Source: Gemmatimonadota bacterium (GTDB lineage Bacteria; Gemmatimonadota; Gemmatimonadetes; Gemmatimonadales; GWC2-71-9). Taken from it: a stretch of 34,962 nucleotides of DNA. Numbering within the stretch: the first letter of the stretch is position 1; the number at the start of each line of letters is the position of its first letter. Shown in pieces: positions 1,875 through 10,099 of this stretch. The stretch lies in the NCBI GenBank assembly GCA_016199245.1, contig JACQHC010000164.1:1-34962 (forward strand). The letters are read 5' to 3'. Made by a program: the position numbers and the translations under genes. The notes under the pieces were generated by a model. That model made no database searches. It was given only the letters and a program-made list of their open reading frames with translations, and was not told where the DNA came from.

Positions 1875-3656
1875 TCACGACGTTGCCCGGGCCTGCCTGG
1901 CGACGCCCGTGTCCGTCCGGCCCCGCCCGAAGAGGGCGCGGCCCGGGAGTGCACCGGTGTGCTCGCCATTGCGGATCACAACCACGCCGTTCACGATCAC
2001 GTCACCGATCCCCTCGGGGAATTGGTGTGGGTTGTCGAACGTGGCGCGGTCGTTGACCCGAGCCGGATCGAAGACCACCAGGTCCGCCCACATTCCCGGG
2101 CGGATGAGCCCCCGGTCGAGGAGCCCCATGCGTTGCGCCGGCAACGATGTCATTCGGCGCACCACGTCCTCCAGGGTCCCCACGCCCAGGTCCCGGACGT
2201 AGTGGCCCAGCACCCTGGGGAACGTGCCATACCACCGGGGGTGCGGCTTGCCACCGAAGTCCGGCGACGCCGCCGTGCCGTCGGAGTCGAAGCTCAACAG
2301 CGGGTGCCGCAACGCCAGCTGCACGTCCTTCTCGGACATGTAGAACATCACGATACCGACGTCCCCACCCTGCTCGATGAACAGGTCGAGCGCCAGGTCG
2401 TCCGGCGCCTTGCCCTGCTCCCGAGCGATCTCGCCGAGCGTCTTCCCCACGTACTGCTCCGGGTTCTTCGGCACCGATGCGACGATCACGGCGTTGAAGC
2501 CCGACGCGCCGGTCGTCTCGTTGTAGTACTTGGTGTTCATGTACTGCGTGACTTCACGCTTGATGCGCGGGCGCAGCTCCGGGTCGGCCAACCGCGCGAG
2601 GAACTTCTCGGTGCCACCCTCGTGGGCCCACCGCGGGATCTCCGTGGAGAGCCCGTGCGACGCCGCGATGTAGGGGTACACGTCCGCGGCGATGTCCACG
2701 CCCCGTCGCCTCGCCGCCTCAATGGCCGCGAGCGCCTGCCCCATCTTCCCGAAGTTCGGCCGGCCCGCCGCCTTCAGGTGAAAGATCTCGACGCGGACGC
2801 CCCCCTGTTCGCCGATGGTCGCGGCCTCCTCGATCGCCTCCACGATGTGCGCACCCTGGTCCCTCATGTGTGTGCCGTAGATGCCACCGTACGGCGCCGT
2901 CACCTTCGCCAGCTCGATCAACTCCTGTGTGCCGGGCACCGCGTCCGAAGGCCTGCCCTCAGGCCCCAGTTGCTCCTGGCCCGGCGTCTCGAGCGCCATC
3001 ACGAGCCCGACGGCACCGTCCTTCATCCCCTCGTCCAGGAGTCGCTTCATCTCCTCCAGCTCCTCGGCCGTCGGCTTGCGCTGCACCCCTTCACCCATCA
3101 CGTACCTGCGCAGCTGGCCCGCGCCGATGTAGGACATGACGTTGCCAGAGGTCCCGGAGGATTCCAGGCGCTCGAAGTACCCGCGCAGCGTTGTCCAGTC
3201 GGCCTCGATGCCGTAGCCCCCGCCGCCAGCACCCGGCTTGCGCGGCGCCACCGACGAGCCCTCGCCAAGGATCTCGGTCGTCACGCCCTGGCGGATCTTG
3301 CTCAAGCCGCGCCCGTCGCGCAGCAGCGAGAAATCCGAGTGCGTGTGCATGTCGATGAACCCCGGTGTGACGACCCTGCCCGTCGCGTCGATGACCTCGG
3401 CCGCGCTCGCCTGGTTCAAGTCGCCCACCGCCGCGATGCGCCCGTCCCGCACACCCACGTCGGCGTAGAACCACGTTCCGCCCGTGCCGTCGATCACGCG
3501 CCCGCCACGGAGCACGATGTCATACCGCTCCCCACCAGTGTCGGGAGACGAACATGCCGGCATCAGGAGCGCCGTTAGGAGTGCCGCTGGGCGCACCAAG
3601 CCCCATATCGTGCCGGACTTCTTCTGCTTCTGCGCCCATGCCGATGAAGTACCCAT
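1875..3656 (-). CDS. N-acyl-D-amino-acid deacylase family amidohydrolase, lipoprotein
   Basis: A metal-dependent amidohydrolase of the D-aminoacylase branch, expected to release D-amino acids or related N-acyl compounds by amide hydrolysis. With the start at 3656 it has 593 residues. The beta-sandwich opening YDIVLRGGRVIDGTGG is followed by the metal site GFIDMHTHSD (His104, His106). Further conserved family segments are YGTHMRDQG, IFHLKAAG and SFDSDGTA, and the sequence ends in the usual composite beta-sandwich (GMWADLVVFDPARV). The N-terminus has a hydrophobic stretch ending in LLMPAC (Cys35), a lipobox-like site, so the enzyme is probably exported and lipid-anchored. GAGG at 3664-3667 sits 7 nt before ATG 3656. 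In-frame ATGs at 3662 and 3740 are alternatives, but the longer form would bury the signal sequence. The exact substrate cannot be read from sequence. Confidence 0.9.
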   Translation of the reverse strand: MGTSSAWAQKQKKSGTIWGLVRPAALLTALLMPACSSPDTGGERYDIVLRGGRVIDGTGGTWFYADVGVRDGRIAAVGDLNQASAAEVIDATGRVVTPGFIDMHTHSDFSLLRDGRGLSKIRQGVTTEILGEGSSVAPRKPGAGGGGYGIEADWTTLRGYFERLESSGTSGNVMSYIGAGQLRRYVMGEGVQRKPTAEELEEMKRLLDEGMKDGAVGLVMALETPGQEQLGPEGRPSDAVPGTQELIELAKVTAPYGGIYGTHMRDQGAHIVEAIEEAATIGEQGGVRVEIFHLKAAGRPNFGKMGQALAAIEAARRRGVDIAADVYPYIAASHGLSTEIPRWAHEGGTEKFLARLADPELRPRIKREVTQYMNTKYYNETTGASGFNAVIVASVPKNPEQYVGKTLGEIAREQGKAPDDLALDLFIEQGGDVGIVMFYMSEKDVQLALRHPLLSFDSDGTAASPDFGGKPHPRWYGTFPRVLGHYVRDLGVGTLEDVVRRMTSLPAQRMGLLDRGLIRPGMWADLVVFDPARVNDRATFDNPHQFPEGIGDVIVNGVVVIRNGEHTGALPGRALFGRGRTDTGVARQARATS

Positions 3657-3759
3657 GACCATGCCTCGAAGGTGGAAAGGACGAGAAACGCGCACGGGAG
3701 AATGGCTATGACTCGGGGCGCGACGCAGATCCCGCATCATACGGCTGCCGGCGCACGGC

Positions 3760-3845
3760 GCCGGGCTGTCGGATCAACTTGGCGCTACGATACTGCCGGC
3801 TTGCTAAGGAACGCGTGAACAGCCCATGAGCACGCGCTCAGATTC
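3760..3845. repeat. Left arm of 86-bp imperfect inverted repeat
   Basis: Aligned with the reverse complement of 3983-4068, this arm matches at about 71 of 86 positions without gaps. The inner 50 bp match at 43, including uninterrupted blocks CCGGCTTGCTAAGGAA (16), GTGAACAGCCCATGA (15) and GCGCTCAGATTC (12). It faces the amidohydrolase gene. Confidence 0.9.
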
Positions 3846-3859
3846 ACGGAAGTTTGGCC

Positions 3860-3869
3860 TGTCAAGTGA
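3860..3869 (-). repeat. Inverted copy of the 10-bp motif TCACTTGACA
   Basis: TGTCAAGTGA on the plus strand is the exact reverse complement of the two copies at 3930-3939 and 3950-3959. All three lie in the 137-bp centre of the large inverted repeat, so this could be a protein-binding site. Confidence 0.6.
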
Positions 3870-3925
3870 CCCAAGGCAATCGACGGGCGGGCGGGCGCCG
3901 ACATCTGCTCACCGTCCATATCTAC

Positions 3926-3965
3926 TGCCTCACTTGACAAACCTGTGTCTCACTTGACAAAACTG
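3926..3965 (+). repeat. Tandem 20-bp repeat containing TCACTTGACA
   Basis: Two adjacent 20-bp units (3926-3945 and 3946-3965) match at 18 of 20 positions, each carrying TCACTTGACA. The embedded TTGACA resembles a sigma70 -35 hexamer, but no -10 hexamer lies 16-18 nt further on for either copy. Confidence 0.75.
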
Positions 3966-3982
3966 AGGGGAGTGATTTCGAC

Positions 3983-4068
3983 GAATCTGAGCGCACATTC
4001 ATGGGCTGTTCACCTATTCCTTAGCAAGCCGGGGTTATCATAGCGCCGAGTTGACCCGGCAGCTCGGC
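3983..4068. repeat. Right arm of 86-bp imperfect inverted repeat
   Basis: Partner of 3760-3845, facing the SusC-like gene. Differences between the arms are scattered, many being transitions. The hexamer TATCAT (4036-4041) here corresponds to TATCGT in the other arm, each followed by AGCGCC, so both arms would present the same outward-facing signal. Confidence 0.9.
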
Positions 4069-4211
4069 CGGCGAGTTGTGTGGTGTCTTTGGAAATCCAC
4101 TGTCGCTGGCACGGAGTAGACAGTCGCGCCAATCCGGGGGAGGTTCCCTCACGATGCCACCCACGGCGTCCAGTCACCCCCTTCGCCCCATTTCGGCCGC
4201 GAGCTTGGCTA

Positions 4212-4345: not shown

Positions 4346-7300
4346 ATGGTTCCGCGGAAACTAGTGAGATCGGTTTGGCTGTTCGCAGCCTTCTGGGTCA
4401 CGTCGGCCGCTGCGTTCGCCAGTGCGAGCGCGCAGCAGACAGGGACCGTAAGCGGCGTGTTGACATCTGCCCGCGACGCTCGGCCGCTGGGCGGCACGGA
4501 GGTCCGCATTCCCGCGCTGAACCTGAGCGCTACGACGACCGCCCAGGGGCGTTTCGTTCTGCCCGGCGTGCCCGTCGGGCGATACGACATCACGGCTCAA
4601 CGTATCGGCTACCGCCCAATGACGCTGCCGGTCGTGGTGACGGGAGGGCAGACCGCCACGATCAACTTCGCGATGGAGGAGCGCGCGATCTCGTTGGAGG
4701 AGATCGTGGTGACCGGTGTGGCGGCCGAGACACCGCAGACCCAGACGGCGTTCACGATCGCGAAGATCGACGTGGCCGAGGTCTCGAAGCGGCCCCAGGT
4801 TAACGTGGGCGGTCTGCTGGCGGCCAAGGTCCCCGGCGTCAAGGTGGTCCAGGGATCGGGGCAGCCCGGCACGGAGCCATCGTTTCAGTTCCGTGGACCG
4901 AAGAGCATCACCGGAAGCCAGGCGCCGCTCGTGGTGATCGACGGTGTGATCACGAACGGCGGCATTGCAGACGTTGATCCGGCGGACGTCGCGTCAATCG
5001 AGATCGTAAAAGGTGCCGCGGGCGCCGCGCTTTACGGCTCGCGGGCGCAGGCGGGCGTGATCCAGATCACCACGCACACGGGCCGTCACCTGAGACCTGG
5101 TCAGACGCAGTTCACGGTGCGCACCACGTACGAGGACAACTCGATTGAGCGGTACTACGGCGTGCCGATGCACCACCAGTGGATGATGAATGCCGACAAG
5201 ACCGCGATCCTGGACCTGAACGGGCAGCCGATCACGTACCCGCGCAACGGGGCGCCGGCCCTGAACGACGGCGGGAACGGCCGCAACGCGTTCCGCACCT
5301 TCATGACCAACCCGTACCCCCCGGAGCTACAGCCGCTCCGCGACCCGATCAGGCAGTTCTTCAATCCCGGCGCGCGCATCACGAACTACGTGGCGCTGGC
5401 CGGGACCGAGGGGAGCACCGACTACCGGGTTTCCTTCGACCGGATGAAGGAGGACGGGGCGATCACGCTCATCAAGGGAATGACGCAGTACAACGCCCGG
5501 ATCAACGTAGGTCAGACGTTCGGGAGGTTCCAGGTCCGGACCCAGGCGTACTTCGCGAAGCGAACCCGCAGTCTGCTCGACGAGGGCGGCGGCGGCATCA
5601 TCCGCACCCTGACCTTCACAACCGCGGCCGCCGACCTCCTGAAGAAGGACTCCACAGGCCAAGTCAGCCCATACGGCGAGCCGATCGACCAGGGCAACGT
5701 AGGGCGCAACCCGGTCTACACGCTGCTCAACACGGAGGCCGAGGAGGGGCGGCAGCGAGGCATGGGCGGTCTCGACGCGAGCTGGAACCCGCTCGGGTGG
5801 CTGTCCCTGCAGGCGAACGGCAGCTTCGACCGGATCGAGACGAACACCCACCGCTACGAGCGCCCCGGCCTGATCGATCCGTACAATCCGCCGGAAACCG
5901 GCTTCATCCGGGATCAGCAGGATCGGCGCCTGGAAATGAATGCCTCGCTGACGGCGGCGCTCACCTTCCAGCCCCTCAACGACCTCACGATGCGCGGCCG
6001 GCTTCGCTATCTGGTCGAGAGCCTGGACGAGAACGGCTTCAGCGTCGAAGGGCAGAACCTTCCTGTACAGGGCGTGGAGCGGATCAATCTGATCGGCGGC
6101 ACGCCGAGCCTCAACTCGTACAACCGTCAGGTCCGCTCGGAAGGCTACTTCGCCATCGCCGCGCTGACGTTCAAGGAACGTTACATCCTCGACCTGCTGG
6201 GCCGGCGTGACGGCAGCTCGCTCTTCGGCGAGGATGAGCGCTGGCAGAACTACTATCGCGTGAGCGCCGCCTGGCGCATGTCGCAGGAGCCGTGGTTCCC
6301 GTTCGGCTGGCTCACCGAGTTCAAGCCCCGCTACTCGAGGGGTACCTCGGGCGGGCGGCCGAGCTTCGATGCGCAGTACCAGACCTACCAGGTGAGTGCG
6401 GGCTCGATCGTGCCGGTGACGCTGGGCAACAAGGACCTGCGGCCCGAATTGGCCACCGAGCAGGAATTCGGCCTCGACGCGGTGATCGCGGAGCGGCTCC
6501 AGGTGCAGGCGAACTACGTGAAGACCAAGGTCGAGGACCAGTTGCTGCTGGTCCCGCTGCCGTCAATCGCCGGCTTTACAAGCCAGTGGCAGAACGCGGC
6601 GACCGTGGCGGCGACCACGGGTGAGCTAGCCCTCCAGGCGTCGATCATCGAGCGCGACAACCTGCTGTGGACCGCACGCCTGAACCTCGACCGCACGAAG
6701 AACAAGATCACGTACCTGGGCGTGGCGCCGTACCGCATCTCCGACTACCGCGCCGGCCTCTACATCCGCGAGGGCGAGGTCCTGGGCTCGTTCTACGGCT
6801 GGCGCTACCCGACGAGCTGCGCGGAGCTGCCGCAGGGCACCGACTGCGGCCAGTTCCAGGTCAACGACGAGGGGCACCTCGTCTGGGTCGGCACCGGGAA
6901 CAACTGGTGGGAGGGTAAGTCGAAGAACCTGTGGGGCACGACCGGCACCGTAAACGGCGTGACCTACAGCTGGGGCCTGCCACCCTCCGTGCTGAATTCG
7001 ACCTTGAACCTGCCGGACGTGAAGCTGGGCGACAGCGAGCCGTCGCTGAACGGGAGCTTGTTGCAGAACCTCGAGTGGAAGAACTTCGGCCTGACGCTGC
7101 TGTTCGACGCGGAACGCGGCGCGCAGGTCTACAACCAGACGATGCAGTGGCGGTGCCGGGACGGCCACTGCCCCATGATGGACCAGACGGGCAAGCCGGA
7201 CTCGTTGCAGAAGCCGATCACGTACTACAACGCGCTAGGCGTGTACCAGAACAACAAGAACAACAGCTACTTCACCGAGGACGCGGATTACCTGAAGGTG

Positions 7301-7546
7301 CGCGAGCTGTCGTTCCGTTACACGCTGCGGGGGGGCGGGATGCCGGCGTTCCTGCGAAGCGTCGGCCTCTCGCAGGTCACAATCAACCTCACCGGCCGCA
7401 ACCTGAAGACGTGGACGGGCTACCGTGGGTTCGATCCGGAAGTTGGGAAGAACACCTTCGGGGGCTCGGCCGCGGTGGGTCGGATCGATGAGTACTTCTA
7501 TCCGAACTTCCGCAGCCTGGGGTTCGACATCGAGCTGATCTTCTAG
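4346..7546 (+). CDS. SusC/RagA-type TonB-dependent outer-membrane receptor
   Basis: A 1066-residue active-transport receptor that would import a ligand across the outer membrane using TonB/ExbBD energy. Order of parts: signal peptide (cleavage near ASA29-Q30), carboxypeptidase-regulatory-like beta-sandwich (about 34-112), TonB-box-like ISLEEIVVTG (115-124), plug domain (about 130-245) with the SusC hallmarks VVIDGVI and AALYGSRAQAGVIQITT, then a long beta-barrel ending in a terminal aromatic residue (ELIF), the usual signal for barrel assembly. AGGAG at 4334-4338 is 7 nt from the ATG. The SusD-like partner starts 48 nt after the stop, as expected for a receptor/lid pair. Ligand unknown; the nearby deacylase and propeller genes hint at peptide or amino-acid derivatives, which is inference only. 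Confidence 0.95.
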   Translation: MVPRKLVRSVWLFAAFWVTSAAAFASASAQQTGTVSGVLTSARDARPLGGTEVRIPALNLSATTTAQGRFVLPGVPVGRYDITAQRIGYRPMTLPVVVTGGQTATINFAMEERAISLEEIVVTGVAAETPQTQTAFTIAKIDVAEVSKRPQVNVGGLLAAKVPGVKVVQGSGQPGTEPSFQFRGPKSITGSQAPLVVIDGVITNGGIADVDPADVASIEIVKGAAGAALYGSRAQAGVIQITTHTGRHLRPGQTQFTVRTTYEDNSIERYYGVPMHHQWMMNADKTAILDLNGQPITYPRNGAPALNDGGNGRNAFRTFMTNPYPPELQPLRDPIRQFFNPGARITNYVALAGTEGSTDYRVSFDRMKEDGAITLIKGMTQYNARINVGQTFGRFQVRTQAYFAKRTRSLLDEGGGGIIRTLTFTTAAADLLKKDSTGQVSPYGEPIDQGNVGRNPVYTLLNTEAEEGRQRGMGGLDASWNPLGWLSLQANGSFDRIETNTHRYERPGLIDPYNPPETGFIRDQQDRRLEMNASLTAALTFQPLNDLTMRGRLRYLVESLDENGFSVEGQNLPVQGVERINLIGGTPSLNSYNRQVRSEGYFAIAALTFKERYILDLLGRRDGSSLFGEDERWQNYYRVSAAWRMSQEPWFPFGWLTEFKPRYSRGTSGGRPSFDAQYQTYQVSAGSIVPVTLGNKDLRPELATEQEFGLDAVIAERLQVQANYVKTKVEDQLLLVPLPSIAGFTSQWQNAATVAATTGELALQASIIERDNLLWTARLNLDRTKNKITYLGVAPYRISDYRAGLYIREGEVLGSFYGWRYPTSCAELPQGTDCGQFQVNDEGHLVWVGTGNNWWEGKSKNLWGTTGTVNGVTYSWGLPPSVLNSTLNLPDVKLGDSEPSLNGSLLQNLEWKNFGLTLLFDAERGAQVYNQTMQWRCRDGHCPMMDQTGKPDSLQKPITYYNALGVYQNNKNNSYFTEDADYLKVRELSFRYTLRGGGMPAFLRSVGLSQVTINLTGRNLKTWTGYRGFDPEVGKNTFGGSAAVGRIDEYFYPNFRSLGFDIELIF

Positions 7547-7594
7547 CGCCGACCGTAACGGACTTCGGCACCAAGACGAAAGGTGAGGCGACAG

Positions 7595-9154
7595 ATGACG
7601 GTTATTACGAAGACGATCAGACGGTCCGCGCTGGTCGCGGCGCTGCTGTCGACTGGGGCGTGCCTGGACCTGGCCGTGACGAACGTCGATGCACCGGACC
7701 GGGACCGAGCCCTGGCCACGGCGCGAGACGTGGAGGCGCTGATTTCGGGAACGTTCCGGACCTGGTGGGACCTCCAGCAGCGGAACGCGCCCGGACCCGC
7801 GATGGCCGCCATGGCGGATGAACACACGGGCTCGCAGGCGAACTACGGGTTCCAGGACCAGGGAATGGAGCCGCCGCGTGAGATCATCAACCAGACCGCG
7901 TACCAGTGGGGGTACTGGGTCTACGATCCGTGGCTTCTCATCAACCGCGCCCTCGCGTCCATCCGGGACGGGCTCCAGTCGATCGAACAACTGGGGCTGC
8001 AGATCGGCACCGGCGGGGCGGACAACCCGCGCATCCTCGCGTTCGCGAAGTTCATGCAGGGGCTGTTCCTGGGGAACCTCGCGCTGCAGTACGACCAGGC
8101 CTATGTCCTCGACGAGACGGTGGGCGATCCGCTGACCATGGAGCTCAAGCCGTACGCGGACGTCATGGCGGCGGCGCGGGCCAAGCTCGAGGAGGCGCGG
8201 CAGATCGCCAGTCAGAGCAACTTCACGATTCCTGCTGGATGGATGGGTTCCCGCACCTTCTCGAGGGATGTCTTTGTTCGGCTGACACACTCCTACGAAG
8301 CCCGCTTCATGGCCCAGGTGGCGCGGTCGCCGGCGGAGCGGGCAGCGGTCGACTGGAACGGCGTGCTGTCGCACGTCCAGAGCGGGGTCACCGCAGATTT
8401 CGGCGTGGACCTCGACGGTCCCACCGGCAATTGGCGGATCCAGCTGAAGGCCTTCATGGGAATCGGTAGTGACGTTGACCTGGCGCTGCTCGGCCCCGCG
8501 GATCAGTCGGGCCGCTACTCGGCCTACGAGGCCACCAATCCGGCCACGAAGACCCCGTTCGTCATCGATACGGATGACCGGCGGATCCGTGGCGCCGACT
8601 CCCTGAAGGCACCGGGCCTGTACGTCCACTACCGGCCCACGATCATCCAGCCGGCCGAGCGCGGCCTCTGGTACGGGTCGAACTACGCGCCGTGGTGGTA
8701 CTACACCCTCTCGACCACGCGCCTCGGCTTCGCGCCGGACCTCACGGTCATCGAGATGGGCTTCCTGGCCGCCGAGGCGTACATCCGCACTGGCAGGCCC
8801 GATCTCGCGCTGCCGTACATCAACCAGCGGCGCGTGGCTGTCGGGGGGTTGCCGGCGGCCACGGTGGATGGCGTCTCGGGGGCCCGGTGCACCCCCAGGT
8901 CGGCGGGCCTCCTGAAGAAGGCGTCCACCCGGGCGGAAGGTGCCTGTGGTGACCTGATGCAGACGCTGATCTACGAGAAAGACATGGAGACCGCTTACCT
9001 GTACGCGGGGAGATCGTGGTACGACCACCGCGGGTTCGGGACCCTGCGCACGGGGCGGGCGGTCCAGTGCCCGCTTCCACAAGTGGATCTGGATCTGCTC
9101 GGACTGCCGACCTACTCTTTCGGCGGCGTCGGCGGCCAAAGCGCCGCGCCGTAG
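7595..9154 (+). CDS. SusD/RagB-like surface lipoprotein
   Basis: A probable substrate-capturing lid that partners the upstream SusC-like receptor. It has 519 residues. The N-terminus is a lipoprotein signal ending LLSTGAC (Cys23), so the protein should be lipidated. The body has SusD-like features: Trp-rich helical repeats, and a C-terminal stretch beginning LIYEKDMETAYLYAGRSW that resembles the usual E-R-x-x-E/W-R region. I chose ATG 7595 over GTG 7583 because the purine-rich AGGTGAGG (7581-7588) lies 6 nt before 7595 and covers 7583. It is 48 nt downstream of the receptor and followed by a hairpin terminator, so the pair looks like a two-gene transcript. Overall similarity to SusD is by architecture and context, not by a sharp motif. 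Confidence 0.85.
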   Translation: MTVITKTIRRSALVAALLSTGACLDLAVTNVDAPDRDRALATARDVEALISGTFRTWWDLQQRNAPGPAMAAMADEHTGSQANYGFQDQGMEPPREIINQTAYQWGYWVYDPWLLINRALASIRDGLQSIEQLGLQIGTGGADNPRILAFAKFMQGLFLGNLALQYDQAYVLDETVGDPLTMELKPYADVMAAARAKLEEARQIASQSNFTIPAGWMGSRTFSRDVFVRLTHSYEARFMAQVARSPAERAAVDWNGVLSHVQSGVTADFGVDLDGPTGNWRIQLKAFMGIGSDVDLALLGPADQSGRYSAYEATNPATKTPFVIDTDDRRIRGADSLKAPGLYVHYRPTIIQPAERGLWYGSNYAPWWYYTLSTTRLGFAPDLTVIEMGFLAAEAYIRTGRPDLALPYINQRRVAVGGLPAATVDGVSGARCTPRSAGLLKKASTRAEGACGDLMQTLIYEKDMETAYLYAGRSWYDHRGFGTLRTGRAVQCPLPQVDLDLLGLPTYSFGGVGGQSAAP

Positions 9155-9181
9155 GTGTTTCCGGAAGCCGAGCGGGACAGC

Positions 9182-9205
9182 AAGGGGGCGGTGGTCGGCC
9201 CCCTT
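9182..9205 (+). terminator. Rho-independent terminator after the susD-like gene
   Basis: AAGGGGGC (9182-9189) pairs perfectly with GCCCCCTT (9198-9205) around an 8-nt loop, followed by the T-rich TCTGTTCC. It starts 27 nt after the susD-like stop and should end the receptor/lid transcript before the plug-only gene. Confidence 0.75.
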
Positions 9206-9310
9206 TCTGTTCCCTGCCCGTCAGAAGAGCCCCTTGCTCTGGATCGGCCGCGCTTGGATCATTCGGGTGCGCACCGCGCACGCTGCGCTCGCCTTTGCGG
9301 AGGTCCGACC

Positions 9311-10099
9311 ATGGCTACGCGCCGCCTCTTCCGCTGCCGATGGGTACTGGCTGCAGGTGTGATTGGCGTGCTGATTCCGGCGGTTGGGGAACTGGCCGCT
9401 CAGAACGCGGGCGCCGTGGCGGGCAAGGTCACCCTCGGGAATGGCGGGGAAGGAGTGCCCGGCGTCCGCGTCCGGATTCCAGGGGTACAGCTCGAGAGCA
9501 TGACGGACATTCAGGGGATATTCCTGTTCGAGTCCGTTCCCGCGGGCGCGCACGAGATCCAGGCGGAGGTGGTCGGCTGCCGGTCCGGCTCGTGGACGGT
9601 TCGGGTGCCCCCGTGGCCTGCGGTGCTGCCCCTCAAGCTGGACGGGCCCGCGGTTGCGCGGTTGCGCGAGCTGGTGGCGGCCGGTACGGCCGCTGCCGTG
9701 TCGGAAGCCGAGCTGCCGTTCACCGTGCACCGGCTCGAGCGGAGTGATGTGAACCACACCTCCGCCCGGACGCTGGCGGATCTGATTCGCGGCCGGTTCC
9801 CGGGCATCAAGGTGGTGCAGGGGAGCGGTCAGCCGGGCGAGCGAGTATCCATCCAGTTCCGCGGGACGAGGAGCATCTCGGGCAGCCGTGCCCCGCTGAT
9901 AGTGGTGGACGGCCTCATCACCGAAGGTGGGGTGGTCGACATCGACCGGCTGGACATTGAGAGAATCGAAATACTGAAGGGCTCCGCTGCCGCGGCCATC
10001 TATGGCGCCCGAGGCGAGGCCGGCGTGATCGAGATCACGACGACGCGCGCCGCGCCCGACACTGCGCCGCGCTGCTACTTCTCGCGCACCTCGATCTGA
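9311..10099 (+). CDS. Stand-alone TonB plug-domain protein (no beta-barrel)
   Basis: A 262-residue exported protein that matches only the first quarter of the neighbouring SusC-like receptor. It has a signal peptide (cleavage near LAA30-Q31), a carboxypeptidase-regulatory-like domain (about 35-110) and a plug domain (about 135-245). The plug is strikingly similar to that of the adjacent receptor: IKVVQGSGQPG against VKVVQGSGQPG, PLIVVDGLIT against PLVVIDGVIT, and AAAIYGARGEAGVIEITT against AALYGSRAQAGVIQITT. The stop follows 18 residues after the plug and no barrel-coding frame continues downstream. The TonB box seems degraded (RELVAAG where the receptor has EEIVVTG). GGAGG at 9299-9303 is 7 nt before the ATG, so translation looks intact. 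Function unknown: possibly a periplasmic binding or signalling module, or a decaying duplicate. Confidence 0.88.
   Translation: MATRRLFRCRWVLAAGVIGVLIPAVGELAAQNAGAVAGKVTLGNGGEGVPGVRVRIPGVQLESMTDIQGIFLFESVPAGAHEIQAEVVGCRSGSWTVRVPPWPAVLPLKLDGPAVARLRELVAAGTAAAVSEAELPFTVHRLERSDVNHTSARTLADLIRGRFPGIKVVQGSGQPGERVSIQFRGTRSISGSRAPLIVVDGLITEGGVVDIDRLDIERIEILKGSAAAAIYGARGEAGVIEITTTRAAPDTAPRCYFSRTSI

Follow-up and report, generated by a model that had tools for sequence, protein, structure and literature searches.

Results

A long inverted repeat between divergent genes

The element described here lies between two divergent genes, with a gene for an amidohydrolase carrying an apparent lipoprotein signal to its left on the minus strand and a gene for a SusC/RagA-type TonB-dependent outer-membrane protein to its right on the plus strand (Table 1). 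The amidohydrolase probably starts near 3656-3662, and not at 3740, since the reading frame at the former position opens a lipoprotein signal, VRPAALLTALLMPAC; with this start the two genes are about 690 bp apart. The rest of the window (the whole stretch of DNA that was analysed, 34,962 bp) is occupied by ordinary chromosomal genes, for example those for DNA polymerase III alpha, AccA, methionyl-tRNA synthetase and parts of the ATP synthase. No transposase, recombinase or DNA-binding regulator was found among the window proteins scanned. Beyond the full SusC gene there is a 523-aa frame without a Pfam match (7583-9154), followed by a 314-aa frame (9155-10099, plus strand) that has the SusC N-terminal domain and plug only, without a barrel, and is possibly a truncated receptor or the product of a frame break.

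Table 1. Positions of the genes, repeat arms and motifs at the locus
Feature	Position	Strand	Remarks
Amidohydrolase, apparent lipoprotein signal	1875-3662	-	Pfam Amidohydro_3, 2.4e-31; start probably at 3656-3662
Left arm of inverted repeat	3760-3845	+	71/86 matches to the reverse complement of 3983-4068
TATCGTAGCGCC	3781-3792	-	Left arm, toward amidohydrolase
Perfect block CCGGCTTGCTAAGGAA	3796-3811	+	16 bp; mirror copy 4017-4032
Perfect block GTGAACAGCCCATGA	3815-3829	+	15 bp; mirror copy 3999-4013
Perfect block GCGCTCAGATTC	3834-3845	+	12 bp; mirror copy 3983-3994
Centre between arms	3846-3982		137 bp; three TCACTTGACA copies inside
TCACTTGACA, left copy	3860-3869	-	Mirror symmetry reaching inward past the arms
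20-bp direct tandem, two copies 90% alike	3926-3965	+	TCACTTGACA at 3930-3939 and 3950-3959
Right arm of inverted repeat	3983-4068	-	Pairs with 3760-3845, ungapped
TATCATAGCGCC	4036-4047	+	Right arm, toward SusC-like gene
SusC/RagA-type TonB-dependent outer-membrane protein	4346-7546	+	TIGR04056, 457.6 bits against a cut-off of 368

The whole element is 309 bp long, with two arms of 86 bp each. It is clear that this inverted repeat is real and far outside chance: its ungapped score of 41 compares with no more than 13 when the region was dinucleotide-shuffled 100 times, the region folds as DNA at -105 kcal/mol (z -10.3), and the runner-up inverted repeat in the 35-kb window is only 32 nt at 72%, making the element the longest by far. 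With 15 of 86 positions differing between the arms, the repeat is unlikely to be an artefact of assembly. The G+C content of the element is 57%, against 68% for the window.

Twelve of the 15 differences between the arms are transitions and three are transversions. In the outer third of the arms the mismatches are isolated, while further inward they fall in runs of 3, 3 and 4; at least three runs of at least three mismatches were seen in 0.07% of permutations. This clustering suggests separate conserved DNA sites over random decay, and a block pattern drawn from two arm sequences would be compatible either with constraint or with a few multi-base events. It was also observed that both arms (3806-3829 and 3999-4022) carry AAGGAA, three further bases and then GTG AAC AGC CCA TGA overlapping an ATG, which may be a Shine-Dalgarno sequence with a four-codon mini-frame; an origin by chance is conceivable.

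The mirror symmetry extends inward into the centre, where TCACTTGACA is found once in the leftward and twice in the rightward orientation, the two rightward copies being spaced by 20 bp, or roughly two helical turns. Three of the four copies of TCACTTGACA in the organism's own genome (2.58 Mb, 67% complete) are inside the element; the fourth, read by eye, is in a gap adjoining a ferredoxin-like gene. The expected number of TTGACA-N14-TTGACA pairs in the window is 0.04. Besides the element, a scan of the same genome with the TCACTTGACA tandem pattern returned only short weak matches. Two other genomes of the phylum have CACTTGACA-like copies in close succession, 21-23 bp apart: in one (L087:1500-1555) a reading frame has three related copies upstream of it, and in the other (L086:1490-1532) the copies lie just downstream of a reading frame. 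These pairs, whose count is near chance level, may hint at recurring tandem motifs and are a weak parallel.

The first-pass annotation of this stretch proved exact on recount for the arm coordinates, the 86-bp length, the identity of about 71/86 and the 137-bp centre. The TATCRT-AGCGCC that it had noted in each arm is present in both as an uninterrupted TATCRTAGCGCC, and its statement that no transposase or recombinase is nearby agrees with the proteins scanned here. The inward symmetry of TCACTTGACA, the clustering of the mismatches and the more internal start of the amidohydrolase had been missed.

Promoter, RNA and coding potential

A scan for sigma-70-like sites found no promoter of that type in the element, and a variable spacer occupies the stretch 16-18 bp upstream of TATCRT. 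As RNA the two strands fold at -189 and -188 kcal/mol (z -14.9 and -14.4). There was no Rfam match up to E = 1 and no terminator-like tail at the element. Wobble-compatible differences between the arms number six for the top strand and six for the bottom, giving no strand bias. Short reading frames are present in both arms, reading inward as MSTRSDSRK... and MNVRSDSSK... and outward as ...NLSACSWAVHAFLSKPAVS and ...NLSAHSWAVHLFLSKPGLS, and the mismatches are distributed over the codon phases as 7, 4 and 4, again without bias. A coding sequence was rejected, since there is no codon-phase bias and the blocks are without silent changes, so that conservation at the DNA level fits better. Taken together, the absence of a strand bias and of a codon-phase bias argues against either a conserved hairpin RNA or a coding sequence.

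Searches for further copies

The whole element and a profile of both arms were used to search the organism's own genome, and apart from short weak matches only the two arms themselves were recovered. BLAST against 101 genomes gave elsewhere only matches of 20-44 bp (E 0.0004 to 0.01), taken as chance given a search of that size. A search of 394 further genomes of the phylum with the strict core pattern, allowing up to three mismatches, found nothing, and the best match of the two-arm profile in 288 genomes of the order had E = 0.013. No match to the element was found in the viral collection or the phage records, and the plasmid records gave one weak 35-bp match and no more. In the genome collection an 18-base core pattern occurred once in each of three unrelated genomes, without an inverted partner, and these hits were likewise taken as chance. 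Neither dispersed copies nor copies upstream of SusC-like genes, the two BLASTN outcomes foreseen in the first-pass annotation, were therefore seen anywhere searched in this genome or its relatives.

Since the nearest SusC relatives are only 38% identical, and the relatives searched include no second species of the genus, there is no true orthologous intergenic region for comparison. In a non-exhaustive look at relatives, no SusC homologue was seen neighbouring and divergent from an amidohydrolase. Another genome has a hairpin about 400 bp ahead of a SusC homologue (L043:968-1096); its nearly perfect 62-bp stem is of unrelated sequence, and it was set aside as a different element.

Discussion

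The inverted duplication, the pattern of blocks, the tandem TCACTTGACA copies and their placement are directly observed. The explanation that we prefer for them, tentatively, is that one cis-acting regulatory unit was duplicated in inverted orientation and has since diverged, each half of the element now serving one of the two divergent genes. The perfect blocks of 16, 15 and 12 bp favour this reading because short sites kept among drifting spacers are what would be expected of a control region, and outward-facing arms in a divergent gap, together with the kept blocks, favour a duplicated divergent control region in particular. The concentration of TCACTTGACA in the element and its 20-bp spacing also count in its favour. 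Against it count the absence of the unit ahead of other genes, both in this genome and in the relatives searched, the lack of a sigma-70-type promoter together with the variable spacer upstream of TATCRT, and the lack both of an adjacent regulator gene and of a divergent SusC/amidohydrolase pair among the relatives seen. The duplicated divergent promoter/operator put forward in the first-pass annotation is still the best fit as regards placement, block conservation and the TTGACA tandem, but is without comparative support.

In this reading the left half of the element faces the amidohydrolase gene and the right half the SusC-like gene, and each unit, read outward, carries TCACTTGACA, then GAATCTGAGCGC, TCATGGGCTGTTCAC, TTCCTTAGCAAGCCGG and TATCRTAGCGCC. 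A DNA-binding regulator would recognise the blocks and the 20-bp tandem, and both genes would answer one signal through transcription leaving each arm in the outward direction. In a more elaborate version, which we regard as improbable, regulator sites in two long mirrored arrays, and the helically phased tandem that lies between these arrays, would make up a composite bidirectional operator and jointly control the receptor and the hydrolase, perhaps via looping or cruciform formation.

As the main rival explanation, the element could be the solo relic of a non-autonomous mobile element, with the arms as terminal inverted repeats and the centre as a gene-less remnant. The arm-centre-arm layout and the lower G+C would fit, and transposon ends also show block conservation. 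Draft assemblies often lose repeats, and this one is 67% complete. However, searches of this genome, of 101 genomes by BLAST, of 395 by the core pattern, of 288 by the profile, and of the collections of viruses, plasmids, phages and genomes found no second copy. The 7-bp direct repeat GCCGGCG (3747-3753 and 4067-4073) would also speak for a relic, but flanks of this kind yield such a repeat by luck with a probability of 12%, and it extends into the right arm, and so is not a clean target duplication. Furthermore, the mismatches are scattered at the outer ends with the perfect blocks inside, whereas transposon tips usually show the reverse. We therefore consider the relic proposed in the first-pass annotation rather unlikely, within the limits of an incomplete genome and a genus represented by one species. 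The single copy would suit a neutral inverted duplication without function, produced by replication template switching or repair, as would the predominance of transitions (12/15), and single template-switch events can yield clustered multi-base differences. Independent decay would, however, seldom leave mismatches so clustered and three blocks intact (P ~0.0007), and the extra tandem of the same 10-mer is left unexplained; on balance this explanation is unlikely.

The strong folding of both strands, and mismatch runs that would make symmetric internal loops, could point to a transcribed long-hairpin RNA acting as a leader, an attenuator or an RNase III substrate. Any inverted repeat of such length folds well, though, the wobble-compatible differences favour neither strand, and neither an Rfam match nor a terminator-like tail accompanies the fold, all of which makes a hairpin RNA improbable. 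Lastly, inverted repeats around a small centre adjoining a SusC-like gene, with a 16-bp perfect block in the arms, recall the invertible promoter switch of the Bacteroidales that was also suggested in the first-pass annotation. Here the arms are only 83% alike overall, the scan for sigma-70-like sites found no promoter in the centre, and no serine recombinase family match was obtained in the 67% complete genome. Two tyrosine recombinase matches were obtained there, both on other contigs and so outside the window; judged by sequence, one looks to be of the XerC/D type, while a stray integrase seems the best description of the other. In one survey every invertible promoter controlling resistance genes adjoined an invertase gene (PMC8748976). 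A switch of this kind is accordingly the least likely of the explanations.

Nothing marks the element as a new kind of system, and it shares features with several known ones. Like divergent intergenic regulatory regions with paired inverted operator sites, it lies between divergent genes and presents mirror-image conserved blocks toward each, but its mirrored unit, at 86 bp plus the inner motifs, is of unusual length and is without a recognised promoter or regulator. Miniature inverted-repeat elements such as the Correia/Neisseria repeats and RUP (PMC2229807) are similarly small, non-coding and intergenic with inverted-repeat ends, whereas the present element is single-copy, lacks TA ends and has no convincing target duplication; it is also longer, at 309 bp, than that class, which is described as under 200 bp (PMC2229807). 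The invertible promoters of the Bacteroidales (PMC8748976) likewise have a short centre framed by inverted repeats and lie near an envelope gene, but the arms here are imperfect and there is no local invertase or recognised promoter.

If the element is a relic or a chance duplication, then it is ordinary. Should it instead act as a shared operator, the SusC-type receptor and the probable lipoprotein hydrolase would belong to a single response, and the element would offer a handle on the regulators of a poorly studied lineage, whose promoters have received hardly any attention.
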